Assembly (NCBI GenBank): GCA_019637635.1
Contig: JAHBVI010000002.1
Span: forward strand, 1-64,000
Source of the DNA: Anaerolineae bacterium
GTDB lineage: Bacteria > Chloroflexota > Anaerolineae > Promineifilales > Promineifilaceae
Direction of reading: 5' to 3'
Length of the DNA stretch: 64,000 bases
A model generated the notes under the pieces. It saw only the letters and a list, made by a program, of their open reading frames with translations. It searched no databases and was not told where the DNA came from. A program made the position numbers and the translations under genes. This document shows, piece after piece, positions 2,702-60,622 of the stretch. Numbering within the stretch: position 1 is the stretch's first letter; each line of letters opens with the position of its first letter.

Positions 2702-3610
2702 TTACAGGCGCTGCCGCCGGGCGTATAGGGTGAGAATGCTTAACAACACCAACAACAGCAGCAGGCCAATGGCGGCTACCGCCAGTAAGTCAATGGACGG
2801 GGTTGGTGTTGGCGTGGGCGCTTCTTGGGGTTGGGTGAGGGTAGCTACCGCTTCAATGGGTGGTGTGATGTTGGTCACGGCCGTGTCCGTATCCGGCTGT
2901 GCGGGCGGGGGGGCGGTCATTTCCACTGTGGCCGCCCGTTCCGCTACCACCTCGGTGGCGATGGGGCGTGGCAAATCTGAGACGGTGGCCGTGGGCAGTG
3001 GCGCCGTTTGCGCTTCCGCTTCCGGGGTGGCGGCCGGCGTGGATGCGGCCGGCAGCGGCGCGGCGGCCGTGGCCTCCACCTCTGCGGCTGTGCTATCGGC
3101 TATGCTTTCGCCCGCTGCTTCTTCAAGAGCGGGTTCTTCCACTGAAAAGGGGGCGGCTGCGGGGGCGCTTTCAAACGCCAGGCCATCGGCCGTTTCTTCA
3201 CTGGTGGTCACACTGGTAAGCTGTGACACGGCCGTATCCGCCGGGGCCATCATGGCCGAACCGCCGCTAAACAGATTTAGACCGACGACAAAAAACAGGA
3301 GTACGGCCGTTAACACCGTGGCGGCGCGTAAGGCGGGGTAATAGGTGACGAGCGGTTGGCGGGCGGGACGGCCGTATAAAGCCGGGTCAAGTGTAAAGTT
3401 GCGGGGTACCTGGCGCGGCGGCAACTGGCGCAGCAAGGCCCGCGTTTGTTGCTGCTGCGCCACTTCCGCCTGCAAGTCCGGGTCTTGCGCCATTTGCTGC
3501 TCAAAACGCTGGCGTTCGGCCGGCGGCAGGGCATTATCCAGGTAAGCTGTCATCGTTTCCTGCTGCCTGGCTGCCGCCGATTTCGTCCAATTCCGCAAAA
3601 AGTCAAACAT
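2702..3610 (-). CDS. Anti-sigma-factor-like membrane protein with Pro/Ala/Thr-rich outer part
   Basis: The 302-residue protein starts with a short helical domain (MTAYLDNALPPAERQRFEQQM, about residues 20-40) typical of anti-sigma factors, but without the HxxxCxxC zinc motif. A membrane segment follows at about residues 95-113 (ATVLTAVLLFFVVGLNLF). Next is a long Ala/Pro/Thr/Glu-rich low-complexity stretch of about 150 residues, and then a second membrane helix close to the C terminus followed by RRQRL. It lies directly downstream of an ECF sigma gene on the same strand, so it probably binds that sigma factor on the cytoplasmic side. The two helices would place the rich linker outside the membrane as a possible sensor or spacer. 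The partner is inferred from position only. Confidence 0.7.
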   Translation of the reverse strand: MFDFLRNWTKSAAARQQETMTAYLDNALPPAERQRFEQQMAQDPDLQAEVAQQQQTRALLRQLPPRQVPRNFTLDPALYGRPARQPLVTYYPALRAATVLTAVLLFFVVGLNLFSGGSAMMAPADTAVSQLTSVTTSEETADGLAFESAPAAAPFSVEEPALEEAAGESIADSTAAEVEATAAAPLPAASTPAATPEAEAQTAPLPTATVSDLPRPIATEVVAERAATVEMTAPPPAQPDTDTAVTNITPPIEAVATLTQPQEAPTPTPTPSIDLLAVAAIGLLLLLVLLSILTLYARRQRL

Positions 3611-3681: not shown

Positions 3682-4275
3682 TCAAGATTCACCTTGTAAA
3701 CGATATGCCGCCGGTAAAAGTTCCTGTACGCCTTGCAGGCAGTCGCGCAGTTTGCTGCGGGCGCGGCTGAGCCGGGACTTAACCGTGCCCAACGAGACGC
3801 GGGTGATGCGGGCGATTTCTTCATAATCATACCCTTCAACATCGCAGAGGACGGCCGTAGCCCGCTGATCAGCCGGTAATCCTTGCAAACACCGTTCAAT
3901 GGCCCGCACCAATTCTAACCGCTGCTGCTGCTCCTCCGGCCCCAACGCCGGGTCACGCAAAAAGGCAAAGGATTCATTTTCTTCTGTCAGGTCATCCAAT
4001 GAGGATTGAGGGCGGCGCTGCCATTTACGCAGTTCATCATAACAGCGGTTGGTGGCAATGCGCAGTAGCCACGCCTTGAGGCTGCCCTCCCGAAAGCTGT
4101 GCAGCGCCTTGTAGGCGGCAATAAACGTCTCCTGGGCGACATCTTCGGCGGCCTGAGGCTGCCCCATGATGCGGTAAGCCACGTTATACACCGCTTGCTG
4201 ATGTGCCAACACCAGCCGGTTATACGCGGTCACGTCGCCCCTTTTTGCCTGTTCGATGAGTGCTGCTTCGTCCAT
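3682..4275 (-). CDS. ECF (RpoE-type) RNA polymerase sigma factor
   Basis: The protein has 197 residues. Region 2 lies near residues 10-75, with YNVAYRIMGQPQAAEDVAQETF and the -10-recognition helix FREGSLKAWLLRIATNRCYD. Region 4 lies near 125-180, with LPADQRATAVLCDVEGYDYEEIARI and the helix-turn-helix VSLGTVKSRLSRARSKLR. This is a standard two-domain ECF sigma factor that directs RNA polymerase to stress or envelope promoters. The ATG at 4275 is preceded by a tandem GGTAATC repeat instead of a clear ribosome site. The downstream gene encodes its probable anti-sigma factor. The target regulon is unknown. Confidence 0.9.
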   Translation of the reverse strand: MDEAALIEQAKRGDVTAYNRLVLAHQQAVYNVAYRIMGQPQAAEDVAQETFIAAYKALHSFREGSLKAWLLRIATNRCYDELRKWQRRPQSSLDDLTEENESFAFLRDPALGPEEQQQRLELVRAIERCLQGLPADQRATAVLCDVEGYDYEEIARITRVSLGTVKSRLSRARSKLRDCLQGVQELLPAAYRLQGES

Positions 4276-4278
4276 TGT

Positions 4279-4336
4279 TCGGTAATCGGTAATCGGTAAT
4301 CGGTAATCGGTGAACGGTTAACCGTTCACCGATTAC
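4279..4336. repeat. Tandem GGTAATC words ending in a 17-bp palindrome
   Basis: Four head-to-tail copies of a 7-mer (CGGTAAT register) run into a perfect palindrome. The left arm GTAATCGGTGAACGGTT (4303-4319) pairs with 4320-4336 without a spacer. It sits just upstream of the ECF sigma start codon. The same GTAATC-type words reappear at several other intergenic sites in this window. Confidence 0.8.
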
Positions 4337-4395: not shown

Positions 4396-4477
<82 letters not shown>

Positions 4478-52000: not shown

Positions 52001-53211
52001 TGCCGGAAATGGCCGCTTACCTGGGGCAATTGGGGCGGGCGCTGGTCTGGGGTGATGGGGGGGGTAGGTACGGCCGTTGGCTTTTTCTGGCCGGGTTGCT
52101 GCTGATTTTGTGGGGGGCGCGCCGCTGGTGGCCGGTGCAGCCGGGTTGGGTCGCCTTTCTGGCGGCCTGGCTGGGCGGTGTGGCATTGACCGTGTACTTG
52201 TTGGCGCTGCGCCAGCCGTTAATGCCAGCGGCGATGGTGGCGCTGGCGGCTCCGGCCTGGTTATTGCTGCTGGCCATGGGCCTACGGGCGCTGGCGGGTG
52301 ATGCCTCCTCCAGGTTGGGCGTCTCTGTTTTTACCACAGAGACACAGAGGCGCAGAGGGAGAGAGGTGGTGGCCTGGCTCATTGGCCTGGGGGTGCTGGC
52401 GGCATCGGTGGCCGGTTTGGTGCGGTTGTATGGGCAGCCGCTTTACGGCCGTGCGCCGGATTTACGCGAACTGGCGCGGCTGGTGCAAACGGCCGCTTCC
52501 CCTGGTGACGGCGTTATCGCCGCGGGTGTGGAGATGCTGCCGTTGGCCTACTATCTGGCCGACACGCCAGTGGAGATGGTGTTTGATGGGGCGGATGCGA
52601 CCTGGGCACAGCCGCACGGCCGTGTCTGGCAATTCTCGGCGGCGGCGGCTGATGAGGATCCGGCAGCGTTATGGCTGGCAGCTAACGGCTTGTGGGAATG
52701 GCAGGCAGCGGCAGGCGATTATGCGCTGCAAAGTTACCTGTTGGGTGAGGGGCTGGCGGCGGCGCTGCAACCGCCGGAAGCGATGCTGCCGGATGCGGAC
52801 GGTGAACCGCTGCTCTGGCTGCGGGGGGTGTGGGTGACGGTAAACGGCCGTCCCGCCCTGTTTGGCGATTCCCTGACGGTAACGCCGGGGTATGTGGTGG
52901 CGGTGACGCTGGCCTGGGAAGCGGCGCAGCCGGTACCGGTGCATTTAACGGCGTTTGTGCATTTGCTGGCGGCCGATGGCTGGCTGGTGGCGCAGCATGA
53001 TGGCGTACCGGGCGACGGCCGTCACCCAACGAATGAATGGCCGCCCGGCGAGATGATCCTGGATCGTCATACGTTCACCATCCCGCCTACGGCGCTGCCC
53101 GGCCCACTGCACCTGGCCGCGGGATTGTATGAGACGGAGACGGTGACGCGGCAGGTGTTTGCCGACGGCCGTGAGGTGGTGAATGTGGGCATGGTGGTGG
53201 TACGGCCGTGA
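49081..53211 (+). CDS. Giant membrane protein: YfhO-like half fused to GT39/PMT-like half
   Basis: The protein has 1376 residues. Residues 1 to about 725 resemble YfhO: PNSDLSGQFHAFAIFQAQEMGHGRFPIWSP, about 12 helices and an outer domain ending ISEWVQPGWQATVNGVKTPLLTVNYGLQGVLLPAGTHEIELRY. A linker (about 730-762) is encoded by a three-copy repeat. Residues about 763-1140 form a second GT-C domain with ALRLHTLGAQALRPAEAAAF and ALRLPALYLGLLLLPLLAQLGRRM. The usual Asp-Glu of this loop is Ala-Glu, so its activity is doubtful. A C-terminal beta-sandwich (about 1255-1376) resembles that of the IS-split transferase. No ribosome site precedes the ATG, so the start is less sure. Confidence 0.83.
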   Translation: MVRRHLPPLLSWTLLWFLFFAPLLLGRARLPNSDLSGQFHAFAIFQAQEMGHGRFPIWSPGSFGGFPFAADPQSAAFYPPRWLTILAARPWGMPFYALEAEGLLHIWLAGIFTYGLAAHITRRRAAALLAAIAFALGGYLTSYPLLQLAVLETMTWLPLVLLLLRIGVARPRALLAAGLVWGLAFLAGHPQTFLHLSYVAAAYYLFLAVRARWAWRWVVGLGAVVAGTAVGISLVAALPTWHYLALTSRSDTGYAFVASGQPLLLNLQILLPGLLAQWSPEYVGATAVTLAVVALYGRHTLSPADPARSEILFWAGLTLVAAWLALGDNGILFELAYRATPGFALFRQQERLMGVVSLGLALLAAQGAALWLERPAATRPIWRRTAVTLAVLLLLAALILWALPPKSLADWALVWLRAGVFTAVTLALLLVIVKRPRLAWLLPLLLAFDLYAPITQAMDWQAESPAVFWPEPVWLAPLQADQPGRIDSRGLFHANLGEIYGLEDIRGISPLQWQTAGRFNSLPRLTRWRLLHVTHVLDTAPVEPGMVEIAHFEESVLPGETRQGALFRIPDPLPYAWMIYQPRLFPDVEAAWQAMKEPDFDPATQVMVSASPPGLETIVAADPAPQVTMTRPSPSIRRIQVQTAVPGILVISEWVQPGWQATVNGVKTPLLTVNYGLQGVLLPAGTHEIELRYRLPGLALGLWVTAVTLLLVCLLAWRWQPTPTTRSLSPAFAPPSPRRLCRPHLLTPSPQRLRRPHLLTTTALLLVAFALRLHTLGAQALRPAEAAAFLLARGDALPVAVGEPLSPWLMAGLGGWLRLMGSSEWALRLPALYLGLLLLPLLAQLGRRMGGAGLGRLVLLFTAVSPLLVWLSQDGTPGYAWSLLFITAAALLLGDLVAGKRTGRWWLVYAALALLAVMGHGLVWVALLAQGFLLWLARKRPSRRLWLAWLTCVLAAGGMALWLGWPLAENATAVPEMAAYLGQLGRALVWGDGGGRYGRWLFLAGLLLILWGARRWWPVQPGWVAFLAAWLGGVALTVYLLALRQPLMPAAMVALAAPAWLLLLAMGLRALAGDASSRLGVSVFTTETQRRRGREVVAWLIGLGVLAASVAGLVRLYGQPLYGRAPDLRELARLVQTAASPGDGVIAAGVEMLPLAYYLADTPVEMVFDGADATWAQPHGRVWQFSAAAADEDPAALWLAANGLWEWQAAAGDYALQSYLLGEGLAAALQPPEAMLPDADGEPLLWLRGVWVTVNGRPALFGDSLTVTPGYVVAVTLAWEAAQPVPVHLTAFVHLLAADGWLVAQHDGVPGDGRHPTNEWPPGEMILDRHTFTIPPTALPGPLHLAAGLYETETVTRQVFADGREVVNVGMVVVRP
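51271..51358. repeat. Three-copy tandem repeat at the fusion junction
   Basis: GCGTTTGCGCCGCCCTCACC, then two longer copies beginning GCGTCTGTGCCGCCCTC and GCGTCTGCGCCGCCCTC (51294 and 51333, period 39) encode the linker between the two halves of the 1376-residue protein. Confidence 0.8.
52328..52364. repeat. CAGAGACACAGAGG repeat inside the giant gene (in frame)
   Basis: GTTTTTACCACAGAGACACA continues into GAGGCGCAGAGGGAGAG and encodes VFTTETQRRRGRE. The same nucleotide text is a common intergenic repeat in other bacteria. Here it lies in the loop after a membrane helix. Confidence 0.7.
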
Positions 53212-53215
53212 GGGT

Positions 53216-54988
53216 TTAGGGTAATGAATACTTTGTCCAGACAGGGGTCAGATCACACTGGCAGTGAGCGGTGAGTAATTCGCGGAAGGCGGCAGCGTCC
53301 GCGCCGCCCCAGCGGTAGGTTTGCACATAATCGGCCAGAAAGGTGACAAAAGCAGCCTGCCCCATCGTCTCCGCCAGGGCCGCAAAGAAGAGGGGGGATT
53401 GGCCCTGCGTCATGTTGTAATAGCCCAGATTGGTGTAGACGGCAGCGGGCAGATCGAATGGCCCATAAGCTGCCTGGGCGCGCGTTTGCCAGCGTTGGTT
53501 AAGGTTGGTCACGGCCGTGTCATTGTCCCCGTAGGCATAGTGGCTGGCATAAGCCGCCAGCCCCTCTGCCAGCCAGGGGTTTTGCAACTGGCTGGCAGCG
53601 GCAGGTGGGATAAACCATTGGCTGGCGGTTTGCAGCATAATCATTTGCTGACGGCCGTCAGGGTAATACAAAAAAGGGTCATGGGCCAGCAAAATCACCC
53701 CCGGATACGAAGCGCCCTGGTTGGCATGGGCCAGAGTGGGCACGTTGATGATGTCCAATTCTGTATAAGGGTACGCCCCAAAAAGCCGGTTGTACTGCGT
53801 GAGCGCAGTTTGGGCCAGGGTCAAAGCTTCCTGGGCATTGCCAAGCTGGTTGGCCGCAAACGCATAACTATTGACGTTGGTTTCACCTACCTTGCCGCTG
53901 ACGGCAACCTGGAAACGGCGGCCAACGGTAAGATGAAACGCATGAACGGGGCCGGCGGCGATGGTAACAATTTGCCGGGTTGGCCGGCTGCCTGCCAGTT
54001 CGCGCCCGGTGACAATACCGGAGGCAACAAGGCTGCGGCTGTCTGGCGCGTTGACCCGCAGGCGATAAAAACTGGGGATGGCCGGGAACAGTAAGTTTTG
54101 GGTGGGCAGCGTCATATCCCACCCATTTTCTGGCCGGTAAACGGCCAGGGTGGGGTTGAACTGCACCAGGTGAATTACTTCCGGGGGCAAGGTCTGCGCC
54201 GGGTTACTGCGCCACTCAAAGGCCATTTCTACCACCACCGTTTCACCGGGCAACAATGGCCGGGGCAGTTGAATCTGCACATGGCGGGATTGATTCAACA
54301 GTTGCGGTTCAACTGGCCGGTCATTCACTTCCACATCATAGACGGCCAATGATTCCCCCTTCTGGTTGGGGTAAAGGTGGAAGACGAGGTTTGTCAGTGT
54401 GTCAGGGGTTGTATTGATGTAGCGGAGTTGCTGACGGCCGTCCATATGCCGCAGATCATCGCTGATAGTAACATCAATATGGTAAACCGGGGCAGCAGCC
54501 AGCATATCCAGCGCGTCTTGTTGGGAAACAAGCAGACCGGCCTGGTAAGGCGCCGGTTTATCCCAGGCTTCGTCGAACAATTTCACCATGCCCGGTGGAT
54601 CAACAAACTGCTCATTGAAAGCCGGCGCCGGGTTATTGGCGGCGCTCAGCCCCAGCAGATAGAGGCCAAAAAAGAGAAAGGCAAAAACGGCCGTCACCGT
54701 ACCCAATGTGGAAAGCACGTGCATGGAATGAAAATGAACAAACGCCCGGCGGCGGCGCCGGTTCAGACCAGGTTTGATAGACCCAAAGCGCATCCGGTCA
54801 GACGGCCGTGAACGCCGTATTTCATCTGCCAGGTCAGTAGCAAAGCGTCGCCGCTGCATTTCCGCCATTTGCAGGCGCGCACGGCACTCACCACAGCTTT
54901 GCATGTGGTGGTTCATCGTCTCGCGCTGGGCATCGGTGAGCGCGTGATGAATATAGCCTTGAACATCACGGTCAGTAAAATGAGTCAT
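53216..54988 (-). CDS. Anti-sigma factor fused to an M1-peptidase-like domain lacking HExxH
   Basis: The protein has 590 residues. The N terminus is a zinc-binding anti-sigma domain with HHMQSCGEC (His28, Cys32, Cys35, the HxxxCxxC motif). A membrane helix lies at about 90-112. The outer part (about 160-590) follows the M1 aminopeptidase plan: an N-terminal beta domain (YHIDVTISDDLRHMDGRQQL and on), then YPYTELDIINVP, and NPWLAEGLAAYASHYAY after the active-site helix. The expected HExxH is replaced by MLQTASQWF, so zinc catalysis is not expected. The gene overlaps the ECF sigma gene upstream by 4 nt (ATGA), which marks the pair. It may sense peptides or envelope proteins. Confidence 0.85.
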   Translation of the reverse strand: MTHFTDRDVQGYIHHALTDAQRETMNHHMQSCGECRARLQMAEMQRRRFATDLADEIRRSRPSDRMRFGSIKPGLNRRRRRAFVHFHSMHVLSTLGTVTAVFAFLFFGLYLLGLSAANNPAPAFNEQFVDPPGMVKLFDEAWDKPAPYQAGLLVSQQDALDMLAAAPVYHIDVTISDDLRHMDGRQQLRYINTTPDTLTNLVFHLYPNQKGESLAVYDVEVNDRPVEPQLLNQSRHVQIQLPRPLLPGETVVVEMAFEWRSNPAQTLPPEVIHLVQFNPTLAVYRPENGWDMTLPTQNLLFPAIPSFYRLRVNAPDSRSLVASGIVTGRELAGSRPTRQIVTIAAGPVHAFHLTVGRRFQVAVSGKVGETNVNSYAFAANQLGNAQEALTLAQTALTQYNRLFGAYPYTELDIINVPTLAHANQGASYPGVILLAHDPFLYYPDGRQQMIMLQTASQWFIPPAAASQLQNPWLAEGLAAYASHYAYGDNDTAVTNLNQRWQTRAQAAYGPFDLPAAVYTNLGYYNMTQGQSPLFFAALAETMGQAAFVTFLADYVQTYRWGGADAAAFRELLTAHCQCDLTPVWTKYSLP

Positions 54989-55578
54989 TTTTGGTCAGAA
55001 ACCGGGTTTCTTGGAGAAACCGGGTTTCCCTCTATCTGCGTTTTGATCTGGTCATACGCCAGGCGCACGCGGGATTGGGCAGTGGGAATGGGGCAGCCCA
55101 GGATTTCGGCCATTTCGCGGTAGGTGCAGCCCGCCCAATAACGCAAGACAATGGCTTCTCGATAGCGCGGTTTCAGGGTTTGGATAGCCTGCCAGAGTTG
55201 GGTATGGGTCTGGTGAACGGCCGTGATCATTTCCGGGTCAGGTCGCTCATCCGGCACATCTTGCCCCTTTTGCAGCCACTCACTCAGTGAAAAACTGGGC
55301 AGCAGCTTGCGCCGTCGTTTGTCACGGCAGCGGCTCACGGTGATGGTATGCAGCCAGGTAGCAAAACCGGATTTCGTATGATCATATTTGTGAACGTTCA
55401 CCAGCGCATACGTCAGCGCGTCTTGCGCCGCTTCTTCGGCGTCCTCGTGGTGGCCCAACAATCCATAGGCAAGCCGAAACGTCTGGTCGCGGAACTGGTT
55501 ATAAATGAGTTCCGCGGCCCGTTCATCCCCTTTACGCCAGCGTTCCAGCCAGGCAGTGAGCGTATCGTTGTTAGCCAT
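54985..55578 (-). CDS. ECF RNA polymerase sigma factor with repeat-encoded tail
   Basis: The protein has 197 residues. Region 2: YNQFRDQTFRLAYGLLGHHEDAEEAAQDALTYALVNVHKYDHTKSGFATWLHTITVSRCRDKRRRK. Region 4 (about 125-182): LKPRYREAIVLRYWAGCTYREMAEILGCPIPTAQSRVRLAYDQIK. It is a normal two-domain ECF factor. The last 14 residues (GNPVSPRNPVSDQK) come from a dispersed repeat. It overlaps its anti-sigma partner by 4 nt. Targets are unknown; the partner suggests envelope stress. Confidence 0.92.
   Translation of the reverse strand: MANNDTLTAWLERWRKGDERAAELIYNQFRDQTFRLAYGLLGHHEDAEEAAQDALTYALVNVHKYDHTKSGFATWLHTITVSRCRDKRRRKLLPSFSLSEWLQKGQDVPDERPDPEMITAVHQTHTQLWQAIQTLKPRYREAIVLRYWAGCTYREMAEILGCPIPTAQSRVRLAYDQIKTQIEGNPVSPRNPVSDQK
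54998..55030. repeat. GAAACCGGGTTTC repeat encoding the sigma C terminus
   Basis: GAAACCGGGTTTCTTGGA is followed by GAAACCGGGTTTC. Each copy is itself near-palindromic. It is read in frame as GNPVSPRNPVS at the C terminus of the ECF sigma factor, beyond the helix-turn-helix. Confidence 0.75.
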
Positions 55579-55888
55579 TTTGGTTATTGCCTGTCAACAT
55601 TTGCCCCATTATACGTGAGTTGTTCCCGGTTTGATCACCATTCTATACTGCCAACGGTCATAAACTGACATTTTGTTTTCGGTTGCAAGTCGCAAGTTGC
55701 AGGTTGCAAGTCATTATTTCCAGAGTAACTTGCCACTTGCTACCTGCCACTTGCCACCAGATGAAATGTAACTTTATGGCCTTGCTGAGTATATATTGGG
55801 AAGGCACATCTGGTTTGTCTTGTGAGCCTGATCCAACTTCTTTATAATCAATCTCCAGGCATTTATTTCGCCGGCAACAGGTAACAGG
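55579..55888. other. Intergenic region before the helicase gene
   Basis: This 310-nt divergent gap holds a word-dyad at about 55684-55757: GTCGCAAGTTGCAGGTTGCAAG on the left, and CTTGCCACTTGCTACCTGCC and CACTTGCC on the right. A promoter for the helicase lies at 55820-55848. I see no small gene. Confidence 0.6.
55820..55848 (+). promoter_or_regulatory. Sigma-70-type promoter of the helicase-nuclease gene
   Basis: TTGTGA (55820-55825), a 17-bp spacer and a perfect TATAAT (55843-55848) stand 40 nt upstream of the ATG at 55889. The gene should therefore be expressed from its own promoter with a short leader. Confidence 0.65.
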
Positions 55889-58800
55889 ATGGACCAGATA
55901 CACGCCCGCTTAGAAGCCACTCGCCAGGAACTACTTGACCTGGGCCTGCGAAATCCCCTCGTTAACTATCACCCGCTTAAAGCCAGAAGCCTGGAAATTG
56001 TCCACGAACAGCCGGTAGAGATTATGCGGTTACTGGTGGAGGCAGCGACGGTGTTTACCTTTTTGCCTCAGCCGGAAACCGTCGAGGACTTATTCGACCT
56101 GGCCGGGCAGCCGACCGCCGACCCGTCTACCGACAGCCAGTTGCAAACGCCATACAGTTCTGCTGAACTGCAAAAACGGCTACTGAACAGTTATTACACG
56201 GCCGTTGCCGTCATCGAAGAACAAGGCGTCAACATTCTCTACCTGGCGTTGGGCATGTTGCACTGGCGGGAAACAGCAAACACCACGCTATGGCGCCGCG
56301 CCCCATTGCTGTTGATCCCCGTGTCGCTGGCCCGTGACAGCGCCGACAGCCGCTTTTATCTGACTTACACCGGCGCAGAAATTCAAGACAACCTCTCCTT
56401 GCGGCTCAAGCTGGCGGCCGATTTTGGGCTGGCCCTGCCGGAACTGCCCCCGGCCGATGTGCCCGATGTGGCCGCTTATTTTGCCCAGGTTTCCCAGGCC
56501 GTTCAGGCCATGCCCGGCTGGTTGGTGGACGACACGGCCGTGAACCTCGGCTTCTTCTCCTTCAGTAAACTGCTTATGATGGCTGATCTGGACCCGGCAA
56601 ACTGGCCGGTAGATCGGCGTCCGGCCCATCACCCCATTTTGCGGGCGCTGCTGCACCCTGATGGCTTTAATGAGACCGGTGGAATTTCCGATGACGCTTT
56701 TTTGGATGACCTGCTGCCACTGGCCAACAGCTTTCAGGTGGTAGACGCCGATAGTTCCCAAATGCAGGCAATACTGGACGTGAACAACGGCCGTAACCTG
56801 GTCATTCAAGGCCCCCCCGGCACCGGCAAATCCCAAACCATCACCAACCTTATTGCCGAGGCGTTGGGGCAGGGCAAAACGATCTTGTTTGTAGCCGAAA
56901 AGATGGCGGCGTTGGACGTGGTCAAGCGGCGTCTGGATGAAATTGGTTTGGGTGATGCGGCGCTGGAACTACACAGTCACAAATCTACCAAACGTGGCTT
57001 TCTGGCAGAACTGGCGCGTACTTTGCAACTGGGGCAGCCGCAGGCAGACGGCCGTTTGCAAAACGGCCGTTTCCCGGCCCTGGACGCACTCACCCACCTG
57101 CGCGCCCGGCTCAACAATTACAGCCGCGCCCTCAATGAACCTGTTGGCGACAGCGGCGTAACCCTGTATGAAGCCTACGGACGTGCCCTCCAGCTTCAAT
57201 CCCGGCTGGCCGACTTCGCCCCCTTGCCCACACTCAATCAATCGCTGATGCAAAACTGGTCAAAAGAAACGGCGCAGGCACGGCTGGCGCAAGTGGCGGC
57301 GTTACAAACCTGCTTGCAGCAAATGGACATCCCGGCAGCTCACCCGTTAGCGGGCAGCAGGTGTCAAGAGTATGGCGATACGGCCGTGCCCATCATCCGC
57401 CAACACAGCCAGGATGCTCTGCACGCCCTGGCCCACCAGCTTGCCGCCAGCGCCGAACTGGCGCAGCATCTGGGCACGGCCGTGCCCCTGACCCCGGCCG
57501 ATCTGGACAAACTCCTCTTCGATGCCCGCCACCTGCTGTTAGCGCCTGCGTTATATGCCGTGGATATACACGCTGAAGCCTGGCGCACCCAGGCTGAACC
57601 GCTGCTGGCGGCACTGGAAGCTGGACAGCAAACCGCCCGCGCCCATGCCGAATTTGACGCCTGGCTCATCCCGGAAGCGTGGGCGCAAGATGTACTGCCC
57701 ATTCGTCAGGGGTTGATGGCCGGGCCAAAGTGGTGGCGTTCTCTCTCCGGCCGTTACCGGCAGGCGCGGCAGCAGCTAACCGGGCTGTGCCGCCGTACAG
57801 TGCCTGATTCGTGGGAAGGGCAACTGGCGCTGGTGGATGCCATTCTGGATGTGCAGCGAGTACGGCCGTTGTTGGCACACATGACGCCGCTGTTGGCCGA
57901 ACTCTTTACAGTGCGCTGGCAAAAAGAAGCGTCTGACTGGACCGACCTGCTGCGGGTGGGGCATTGGCTGGTGCGAATGCACCGGGACATAGCGGCCGGG
58001 CAGATTGATCCGGCGCTGCTGGATTATGCGGCGCGGGGGGTGCATGGGGATTGGCTGCGCCCGGCTATCGCGGTTATTGAAAAAATGCGGGGGGAGATGG
58101 TTACGGCCGTTGCCCATCTTTTCACCAATCTGCAATTTGACGAGAGTTTGCGCCTGGGTCCAAAACAGACATTTGCGGACGTCCCCTATGCCGAACAGCA
58201 AACCATCCTGGCGCAAATTCATGCCGCGGCCGAACGCCTGCCAGAGATAGTGGCATATAACCAGGCCGCCAACCAACTTCGGGCAGCCGGATTAACCGAC
58301 CTGGCTGAAGTTGCCCATACCTGGGCACAAGGCCCGGCGCATCTGGCTGACCTGTTTACCCTTGCCTGGCTCACCAGCCTGATCGAAAAAGCCGCCGCCA
58401 CCCATCCCCAGTTAGCCCAGGCAAATAGCGCCACACAAGACGAAACCATCCGCCAGTTTCAAGAGCTAGACAGAGAATTTCTGGTCGCCAACCGGGTGCG
58501 GTTAGCTCATAGCCACTGGCAACAACTACCCCGTTATGCCGCCGCCGGGCAGATGGGGCAGCTACAGGCGGAGATGGGCAAGCAGCGGCAGCATAAGCCC
58601 ATTCGGGTGTTGATGCAAGAAGCGGGACAGGCCATTCAGCGCATCAAACCACTGTTTATGATGAGTCCACTTTCCATCGCCGCCTTCTTGCCGCCAGACA
58701 GCGTGGCTTTTGATCTGGTGATTTTTGATGAAGCCAGCCAGGTGCGACCGGTGGACGCCTTTGGCGCGATTTTACGTGGGCGGCAGGTGGTGGTGGTGGG

Positions 58801-60622
58801 CGACAGCCGCCAGTTGCCACCTACCAGCTTTTTTGAGCGGATTGTGGGAGAGGAGATTGGAGATTGGAGATCGGAGATTGCGGAGCTTCAATCCCCGATC
58901 TCCAATCTCCAATCTCCTGAAAGCATTCTCGATTTATTCTGCGCCCAAAATGCTCCGCAGCGCATGTTGCGCTGGCATTATCGCAGCCGCCATGAATCGC
59001 TGATTGCCATTTCCAACCGCGCTTTTTATGAGCGACAACTGGTCGTTTTCCCCAGCCCGGATGTGGGGCGGCAGGAGTCGGGGCTGCGCCTGCACGTCTT
59101 GCCGCATACGGTGTATGACCGGGGGCGCAGCCGGACGAACCCGGAAGAGGCGCGCCTGGTAGCCGAAGCAGTAATGGCCCACGCGCGGGCGCAGGTGGCG
59201 GCCGATGCGCCATTGAGCCTGGGGGTGGTGGCGTTTAGCGCCAGCCAGAGCGAGGCGGTGCGGGATGAGGTGGAACGGCTGCGCCGGGCCGACCCATCAG
59301 CGGAATCTTTCTTCGCCCACCGGTCAGAACCGTTTTTTGTGAAGAATTTGGAGAATGTACAGGGGGATGAGCGGGATGTGATTTTGATTAGCATGGGCTA
59401 CGGCCGTGCGGCCGATGGCTCCCTGTCACTCAACTTTGGGCCGCTGAACCTGCCGGGCGGGGAACGGCGGTTGAATGTGCTGATCACCCGCGCCCGCCAA
59501 CGATGCGAAATTTTTACCAATTTTGCGCCAGATGAGTTGGATGCAGATCGGGTGGCAGCGCGCAGCATTGCCGTTTTGAAGCAGTATTTACACTATGCAC
59601 AAACTGGAAAATTGCCGCTGTTGGCGCCTGACCAGGCTTCTCGAACTGCGCCGTTTGAAGCTGTGGTGGCCGCTGCGTTACAGGCACAGGGGCACCGGCT
59701 GGCACACCGGGTGGGCGATGGGCCGATGCGTGTGGATCTGGCGGTGCTGGACGAGGCGCGGCCGGGATATTACCGGGTAGGGCTGGAATGTGATGGCGAC
59801 AATTATCACCTGGCGCGTTCGGCGCGGGATCGGGATCGGATTCAAGCGCAGGTGTTGGCCCATCTGGGCTGGCGCGTGGGGCGGGTGTGGAGCCATGCCT
59901 GGTGGCATGACCCGGCAGCGGAGCAGGCGCGGCTGCTGGCGATAATTGAAGGGGAAAATGAGGCGATGGCACGGCCGTTTCCCCCCCCGATGCCCTTGCC
60001 CCGCTATGAGATATTGGACACGGCCGTTGCGCCCCGCCCCGTCCCTGATTACCAGACTGCTCAGATTGAACTTTCCACACGAAAAAGTTCCTTTCACAGC
60101 CGGTATCGGGAAAAAGCCGCTTTTCGGGATGAGGTGCGCCAGCAGTTGGAAACGGTCGTAGCGGTAGAATCGCCGATTCATATCCGGGAAGCAATGCGGC
60201 GGCTGTGGCAGGCCGCCGGTTATAAGGTGTTGAATACTTATGACGATCTGACCAACCAGATTGTGGCCGATGGGGTGGCGCACGGCCGTATACAGCGGCG
60301 TGGTGATTTTTTGTGGACGGTAACGGGGGAACGGCCGTTGGTGCGTAATCGGGCGCAGTTACCGGCGGTGTCGCGTAAGTTTGAATTCATAGCGCCGGAA
60401 GAGGTGGAAGAAGCGGTGCTGTTGGTCATTGACGACGCGGTGAGAATTACCAGAGAGGAGATACCGCTGCCGGTGGGGCGGCTGTTTGGTTTTCGGCAGG
60501 TGGGCGAGGGGGCGGCAACGGCCGTGCAAGCGGCGATAGAGCGACTGATTCAGAAGGGGTGGGTGACGGCCGTTGGGGAGCAGTTATCCACATCTGTTGA
60601 CTTATTACAACAAAACTCTTGA
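55889..60622 (+). CDS. DUF4011-SF1 helicase-MTES_1575 nuclease-DUF3320 protein (putative phage defence)
   Basis: The protein has 1577 residues. A DUF4011-like N terminus (ARLEATRQELLDLGLRNPLV) is followed by SF1 helicase motifs. Walker A is GPPGTGKS (308-315), Walker B is LVIFDEASQV (about 943-952), then VVVVGDSRQLPPTSFF, and RWHYRSRHESLIAISNRAFY as motif IV. NVQGDERDVILISMGYG and RRLNVLITRARQRCEIFTNF are motifs V and VI. A Vsr/MTES_1575-type nuclease follows (about 1270-1345) with VGLECDGDNYHLARSARDRD and WRVGRVWSHAWW. A DUF3320-type end comes last (about 1420-1577). Proteins of this plan are known as single-gene antiviral systems. A word-dyad is inserted in frame after the Q-L-P-P-T motif. 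The stop overlaps the promoter of the HTH gene downstream. Confidence 0.9.
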   Translation: MDQIHARLEATRQELLDLGLRNPLVNYHPLKARSLEIVHEQPVEIMRLLVEAATVFTFLPQPETVEDLFDLAGQPTADPSTDSQLQTPYSSAELQKRLLNSYYTAVAVIEEQGVNILYLALGMLHWRETANTTLWRRAPLLLIPVSLARDSADSRFYLTYTGAEIQDNLSLRLKLAADFGLALPELPPADVPDVAAYFAQVSQAVQAMPGWLVDDTAVNLGFFSFSKLLMMADLDPANWPVDRRPAHHPILRALLHPDGFNETGGISDDAFLDDLLPLANSFQVVDADSSQMQAILDVNNGRNLVIQGPPGTGKSQTITNLIAEALGQGKTILFVAEKMAALDVVKRRLDEIGLGDAALELHSHKSTKRGFLAELARTLQLGQPQADGRLQNGRFPALDALTHLRARLNNYSRALNEPVGDSGVTLYEAYGRALQLQSRLADFAPLPTLNQSLMQNWSKETAQARLAQVAALQTCLQQMDIPAAHPLAGSRCQEYGDTAVPIIRQHSQDALHALAHQLAASAELAQHLGTAVPLTPADLDKLLFDARHLLLAPALYAVDIHAEAWRTQAEPLLAALEAGQQTARAHAEFDAWLIPEAWAQDVLPIRQGLMAGPKWWRSLSGRYRQARQQLTGLCRRTVPDSWEGQLALVDAILDVQRVRPLLAHMTPLLAELFTVRWQKEASDWTDLLRVGHWLVRMHRDIAAGQIDPALLDYAARGVHGDWLRPAIAVIEKMRGEMVTAVAHLFTNLQFDESLRLGPKQTFADVPYAEQQTILAQIHAAAERLPEIVAYNQAANQLRAAGLTDLAEVAHTWAQGPAHLADLFTLAWLTSLIEKAAATHPQLAQANSATQDETIRQFQELDREFLVANRVRLAHSHWQQLPRYAAAGQMGQLQAEMGKQRQHKPIRVLMQEAGQAIQRIKPLFMMSPLSIAAFLPPDSVAFDLVIFDEASQVRPVDAFGAILRGRQVVVVGDSRQLPPTSFFERIVGEEIGDWRSEIAELQSPISNLQSPESILDLFCAQNAPQRMLRWHYRSRHESLIAISNRAFYERQLVVFPSPDVGRQESGLRLHVLPHTVYDRGRSRTNPEEARLVAEAVMAHARAQVAADAPLSLGVVAFSASQSEAVRDEVERLRRADPSAESFFAHRSEPFFVKNLENVQGDERDVILISMGYGRAADGSLSLNFGPLNLPGGERRLNVLITRARQRCEIFTNFAPDELDADRVAARSIAVLKQYLHYAQTGKLPLLAPDQASRTAPFEAVVAAALQAQGHRLAHRVGDGPMRVDLAVLDEARPGYYRVGLECDGDNYHLARSARDRDRIQAQVLAHLGWRVGRVWSHAWWHDPAAEQARLLAIIEGENEAMARPFPPPMPLPRYEILDTAVAPRPVPDYQTAQIELSTRKSSFHSRYREKAAFRDEVRQQLETVVAVESPIHIREAMRRLWQAAGYKVLNTYDDLTNQIVADGVAHGRIQRRGDFLWTVTGERPLVRNRAQLPAVSRKFEFIAPEEVEEAVLLVIDDAVRITREEIPLPVGRLFGFRQVGEGAATAVQAAIERLIQKGWVTAVGEQLSTSVDLLQQNS
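58852..58917. repeat. 29-bp inverted repeat inserted in frame in the helicase gene
   Basis: The arms 58852-58880 and 58889-58917 are built from GGAGATT words and differ at one position, with an 8-nt loop. Its 66 nt (22 codons) encode IGDWRSEIAELQ and on, between TSFFERIVGEE and ESILDLF. The word is the one of the intergenic dyad at 30820-30885. Confidence 0.88.

Follow-up and report, generated by a model that had tools for sequence, protein, structure and literature searches.

The locus that we analysed holds a gene for an ECF sigma factor and, overlapping it by 4 nt, a gene for an anti-sigma factor whose outer part resembles an M1 peptidase. Both lie in a stretch of 64,000 nucleotides, which we call the window, and have the following features.

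53216 to 54988, minus strand: anti-sigma/pseudo-M1 fusion gene, 590 amino acids, with orthologues in 6/6 genomes of the genus
54985 to 55578, minus strand: ECF sigma factor gene, 197 amino acids, with sigma2 and sigma4 regions (Pfam Sigma70_r2, 7e-13; Sigma70_r4_2, 7.5e-15)
54809 to 54988, minus strand: class I anti-sigma domain, residues 1 to 60 (zf-HC2 match in 6/6 orthologues)
54884 to 54907, minus strand: H28xxxC32xxC35 motif, invariant in 6/6 genus genomes
54644 to 54721, minus strand: putative transmembrane helix, about residues 90 to 115, a hydrophobic stretch after RRRRR (77 to 81), read by eye
53219 to 54580, minus strand: M1-peptidase-like outer domain, residues 137 to 590 (about 136 to 589), from hhalign, PDB match and dN/dS

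The gene pair and its surroundings

The zinc-finger motif reads H28-MQS-C32-GE-C35 in the window protein, whose zf-HC2 match lies below the Pfam curated cut-off. The anti-sigma domain is followed by an arginine stretch, the hydrophobic helix, a variable tether and, from about residue 136, the outer domain. The two traits that place a protein among the ASDI anti-sigma factors, the Hx3Cx2C motif and an adjacent ECF partner gene, are both present. The original prediction had described this architecture, an HxxxCxxC anti-sigma domain linked by one helix to an M1-like module with the ECF partner encoded just upstream, and it is borne out in each of these parts; the fusion occurs at full length in all six sampled genomes of the genus. 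The anti-sigma domain is predicted to bind the ECF factor and to hold it inactive at the membrane.

The reading frame of the fusion is intact in the six genomes, and the ECF gene adjoins it in every one of them. The sixth genome (G005) lacks the flanking genes seen in the other five, yet its ECF/anti-sigma pair is intact. Divergently from the pair in the window lies a gene (55889 to 60622, plus strand) for a 1577-aa protein that matches the PADLOC candidate defence family PDC-S37 near full length (E 0); its orthologue L034 has DUF4011, AAA and MTES_1575 domains, and five of the six genomes have a PDC-S37-like gene next to the ECF pair. In G005 the fusion gene is directly followed, possibly within the same operon, by a gene for a pectinacetylesterase-like lipoprotein (PF03283, 2e-13; L038, 4799 to 6022, minus strand), which does not adjoin it in the other genomes with compared flanks. 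Elsewhere in the window, at 3488 to 3559 and about 3690 to 4280 on the minus strand, a second zf-HC2-bearing ORF (304-aa open frame) is situated downstream of a gene resembling another sigma-70-type gene, and there is a tRNA-Leu (caa) at 4396 to 4477 on the plus strand. An Rfam scan of 52500 to 56500 gave no match.

The outer domain and its lost active site

When the six orthologues were compared by hhalign with eight HExxH-bearing Chloroflexota relatives, the two groups aligned over residues 136 to 589 with a probability of 100, an E value of 1e-86 and 37% identity. The profile of the six also matches M1 structures, namely Deinococcus M1dr (6a8z, E 4e-8) and ERAP2 (about 3e-4), and phmmer finds the M1dr structure (PDB 6a8z/6iff) at 6e-7. 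The Pfam Peptidase_M1 family (PF01433) is weak in the window protein (E 3e-4, below the curated cut-off) and matches five of the six orthologues. On the strength of the hhalign and profile matches we regard the homology as firm, and the relation to M1 that had been claimed for this module is upheld at the level of homology. By sequence, the outer domain descends from an M1 peptidase similar to those secreted by its relatives. AlphaFold, run on four sequences, gave a pLDDT of 36 and was not used, so the position of the catalytic cleft is taken from homology. The sites that matter in this region are listed here.

53612 to 53635, minus strand: dead active-site helix LQTASQWF (452 to 459), HExxHQWF in active relatives (H, E and H kept in 0/6 fusions vs 49/49 relatives)
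53699 to 53716, minus strand: GxMEN-equivalent loop GASYPG (425 to 430), GxEYPG in active relatives; exopeptidase Glu gone (E in 49/49 active proteins, S/A in 6/6 fusions)
53561 to 53575, minus strand: WLAEG (472 to 476) with the third zinc-ligand position, Glu in the window and Asp in 4/6 orthologues
53405 to 53407, minus strand: catalytic-Tyr position, Q528 (Y in 48/49 active proteins, Q or H in 6/6 fusions)

We aligned the fusions with 49 active relatives, in which 49 columns reach an invariance of 93% or more. All six fusions keep 29 of these columns, most of them G, P, W, Y, F or L, and all six have lost 16, including those of H452, E453, H456, E427, Y528 and R349. The catalytic roles of H452, E453, H456, E475, E427 and Y528 we take to be those of established M1 enzymology. 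The helix that reads H-E-x-x-H-Q-W-F/W in the active relatives has become L452-Q453-T-A-S456-Q-W-F in the window protein; the zinc His positions are occupied by L/F and S/T in the six fusions, and the general-base Glu (453) is replaced by Gln in each of them. GGMEYPG has changed to QGASYPG, so that E427 is A or S throughout, and at the third zinc-ligand position, E475, every fusion still has an acidic residue (E or D). The HExxH-x18-E zinc site, the exopeptidase Glu and the catalytic Tyr that mark an active M1 enzyme are therefore absent from every fusion. With both zinc His and the residues that hold the N-terminus of the substrate replaced, neither the zinc site nor the ancestral hold on a peptide's N-terminus remains. 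The outer domain is a predicted pseudoenzyme that has been maintained.

The loss of HExxH stated in the original prediction is confirmed, and an intact motif was looked for in the close orthologues and found in 0/6. WLAEG is kept in the window protein, as it stated; the Asp of four orthologues at the E475 position and the losses at the E427, Y528 and R349 positions had been missed.

Distribution and selection

The five other fusions in the genus are 57 to 78% identical to the window protein. Searches with the full protein covered 59 relatives and 400 phylum genomes, two sets that overlap in part, and found no full-length fusion outside the genus, and a search with the anti-sigma part in 298 genomes of the class found none beyond it. 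Matches elsewhere in the phylum cover the peptidase part only. On plasmids, tblastn matches begin at residue 151 or later only, and a scan of viral contigs found no further M1 relatives. Each of the 49 relatives compared outside the genus keeps HExxH and lacks the zinc finger; at the outside loci that we inspected, HExxH stands in each active-site region that is complete, and again there is no zinc finger. Most of these peptidases begin with a secreted-type signal or a lipoprotein-like N-terminus. The tether-side segment of the fusions, LFDEAWDxPxPYQAGLL, is largely common to the active peptidases (LFxxxWDDRxPFxAGLI), and therefore the anti-sigma helix was apparently joined near the signal or lipoprotein anchor of the relatives. 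Five of the six genus genomes contain a further M1 gene, whose motif is intact (HELAHMWF or HEMAHMWF); we considered it as the active parent of the fusion and rejected it, as it belongs to a distant subfamily. A different arrangement was seen in G025 (L007, 511 to 2904, plus strand), where an active M1 domain with HEVGHQWF kept lies behind an alpha/beta-hydrolase-like domain in a 798-aa open frame.

The dN/dS ratio of the outer domain is between 0.14 and 0.30 in all 15 pairs (Nei-Gojobori, about 450 codons) and is similar to that of the anti-sigma domain. This purifying selection led us to reject the reading of the domain as a pseudogene. In the tree the six fusions group together (100/100), with a stem 1.4 changes per site long, and their position within the active peptidases of this family has moderate support (85/69). 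Alignment and tree together indicate that loss of the catalytic residues preceded the divergence of the six species sampled and that the domain then stayed under purifying selection, a history that reads as one burst of fast change followed by constraint. There are 35 positions that are fixed in the six fusions and rare in the active relatives, and 13 of them fall in residues 415 to 461, vs 3.6 expected (P 2.5e-5, an indicative value as the interval was chosen post hoc). This interval spans the old GxMEN loop and the HExxH helix, and the new invariant residues H436, D437 and D444 are close in sequence to the third-ligand position. The clustering along the linear sequence suggests that the cleft has been rebuilt around the old active site.

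A promoter-like element and the apparent exchange of outer modules

Upstream of the ECF gene we found one further feature.

55608 to 55637, minus strand: promoter-like element TGATCA-N16-CGTATAAT, boxes exact in 6/6 genus genomes

The element is 30 nt long, and in the window about 30 nt separate its end from the start codon of the ECF gene downstream. Both boxes are unchanged in G005 despite a diverged spacer and diverged surroundings. In the more general form TGATYA-N16-YGTATAA, the motif precedes 13 of the 15 ECF genes of one clade (at least 50% identity; clade support 1.000) with the same spacing, other genera included, vs none of the 21 ECF genes outside the clade (at most 47% identity). 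Fisher's test gives 4.5e-8 for this comparison and 2e-6 without four near-copies from the genus, values that are indicative since the pattern was loosened after inspecting the data. CGT-containing ECF-type -10 elements and positive autoregulation are common (PMC8103513), which makes autoregulation the natural reading, and the motif suggests that the ECF factor activates its own operon through TGATYA-N16-YGTATAA. A contribution of the housekeeping sigma factor at the element is possible, as the -10 part resembles TATAAT.

We searched the genus genomes for a regulon with three patterns, TGATCA-N16-CGTATAAT with one mismatch, TGATCA-N16-CGTAT and TGATYA-N16-YGTATAA, and found no target beyond the element upstream of the operon itself. 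One site, shared by four genomes, falls within an OppF-like coding region located upstream of a gene for a peptide-binding protein and reads as coding conservation; two more shared sites are also coding and were likewise rejected as targets. In G004 and G002 (L189, L191), TGATTA-N16-CGTATAA directly precedes a gene for an AraC-type regulator, and this gene was not found in the other four genus genomes.

The anti-sigma factors of the ECF clade differ in their C-terminal parts. Those of the window's genus carry the pseudo-M1 domain, and three others (L053, L055 and L058) carry a PQQ propeller. L039, which lies beside the G018 ECF gene (60% identical), has repeated beta-rich modules without a Pfam match, and L057 has several hydrophobic helices. 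L164 and L165 have a short plain Pro/Thr-rich tail and no zinc motif. A survey of the ASDI anti-sigma factors found that attached domains are typically well conserved within a group (PMC7406223), and by that standard the clade is unusual. On this ECF chassis, one outer module can apparently be exchanged for another. Neither the swapped modules nor the clade-specific promoter-like motif had been noticed in the original prediction.

Discussion

For most ECF systems the input signal is not known. Here we think it probable that a re-tooled pseudopeptidase serves as the sensor of a ligand or partner and releases an autoregulated ECF factor, so that the gene pair forms a transmembrane signalling unit. 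The anti-sigma domain would keep the ECF factor inactive at the membrane, and the pseudo-M1 domain, with new conserved residues in its old active-site region, would bind an extracytoplasmic ligand or partner. Binding would then lead to release of the ECF factor. The anti-sigma factor would most probably be cut by regulated proteolysis, as happens with other membrane-bound anti-sigmas, or else be rearranged, and the free ECF factor would transcribe its own operon from TGATYA-N16-YGTATAA together with other targets. Every step past the anatomy of the gene pair is one that we infer. The original prediction proposed that the peptidase fold had become a sensor of peptides or misfolded proteins. Its sensor part stands, as sensing is the likeliest use of a dead domain; peptides or misfolded proteins as the signal received no specific support. 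Along with the zinc site, the residues holding the N-terminus and the catalytic Tyr are gone, so that a peptide would no longer be held as in the ancestral enzyme. Candidate ligands are a peptide, some other small molecule and a partner protein.

M1-like domains that lack catalysis serve as scaffolds in TAF2. With this precedent, the pseudo-M1 domain might be a protein-protein docking module that binds another envelope protein, the signal acting on that partner or on assembly of the complex. A switch from ligand to partner fits the loss of the substrate-holding and catalytic residues at least as well as sensing does, but the newly fixed residues gather around the old active site and there is no conserved partner gene, as G005 lacks the neighbours seen in the other five genomes. 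We therefore consider docking unlikely. The outer domain could also be a passive relic or a target of proteolysis that lost its activity after the fusion and merely anchors or spaces the anti-sigma factor. L164 and L165, in the same ECF clade, do manage with a short tail and no outer domain. Against this stand the low dN/dS over about 450 codons in all 15 pairs, matching that of the anti-sigma domain, the 29 near-invariant columns kept in all six fusions and the six intact frames, and such a role seems very improbable to us. We give hardly any credence to continued peptidase activity through another metal site or mechanism; the acidic third-ligand position in 6/6 and the nearby invariant H436, D437 and D444 would fit it, but every fusion has other residues at both zinc His positions, at those of the general-base and exopeptidase Glu and at that of the Tyr.

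For the sensor reading, the closest parallel that we found is the SigI/RsgI family of Clostridium thermocellum (PMC4711584), in which membrane anti-sigma factors also have an enzyme-derived outer domain, as in RsgI6 with its GH10 domain. This GH10 domain has very low activity and still binds polysaccharide (PMC4711584). As in the ECF clade, related systems of this family have different outer modules (CBM3, PA14, CBM42). The SigI factor is autoregulated, which is what the upstream motif suggests for the ECF factor. The differences are that our pair consists of an ECF sigma factor and a zinc-finger anti-sigma factor (Pfam Sigma70_r2/r4_2, zf-HC2) without SigI/RsgI_N, and that the RsgI6 module comes from a glycoside hydrolase with a known ligand class. 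By analogy, RsgI6 is the best working model for the fusion, and the two are not of the same family. The ASDI anti-sigma factors (PMC7406223) likewise have an N-terminal Hx3Cx2C motif, one membrane helix, an adjacent ECF gene and an extra C-terminal domain; unlike the groups of that survey, this ECF clade with a shared promoter-like motif has at least five different C-terminal parts. M1dr of Deinococcus (PDB 6a8z/6iff) and the Chloroflexota HExxH peptidases have the same fold by homology, the closer Chloroflexota proteins being 31 to 40% identical to the outer domain, but they keep HExxH, and the Chloroflexota ones checked have no zinc finger. CspC of Clostridioides difficile (PMC6636752) is, like the pseudo-M1 domain as we read it, a bacterial pseudoprotease involved in the detection of environmental signals; unlike the fusion, it is a soluble spore-germination protein without a link to an anti-sigma factor. 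In the open-access literature searched, we found no anti-sigma factor that carries an M1-like domain.

More tentatively, and with somewhat more doubt than confidence, we suggest that the whole ECF clade may be an interchangeable receptor platform, in which the sigma factor, the anti-sigma domain and an autoregulatory promoter stay constant and the outer module is swapped. The genus would have captured a secreted peptidase gene and turned its product into a receptor, with the cleft rebuilt as a signal-binding site. With its enzyme ancestry known and active relatives at hand, the proposed conversion of an enzyme into a receptor can be traced residue by residue and tested. The natural swaps of outer modules on one chassis, together with the putative promoter, offer a ready system for testing what each module senses.
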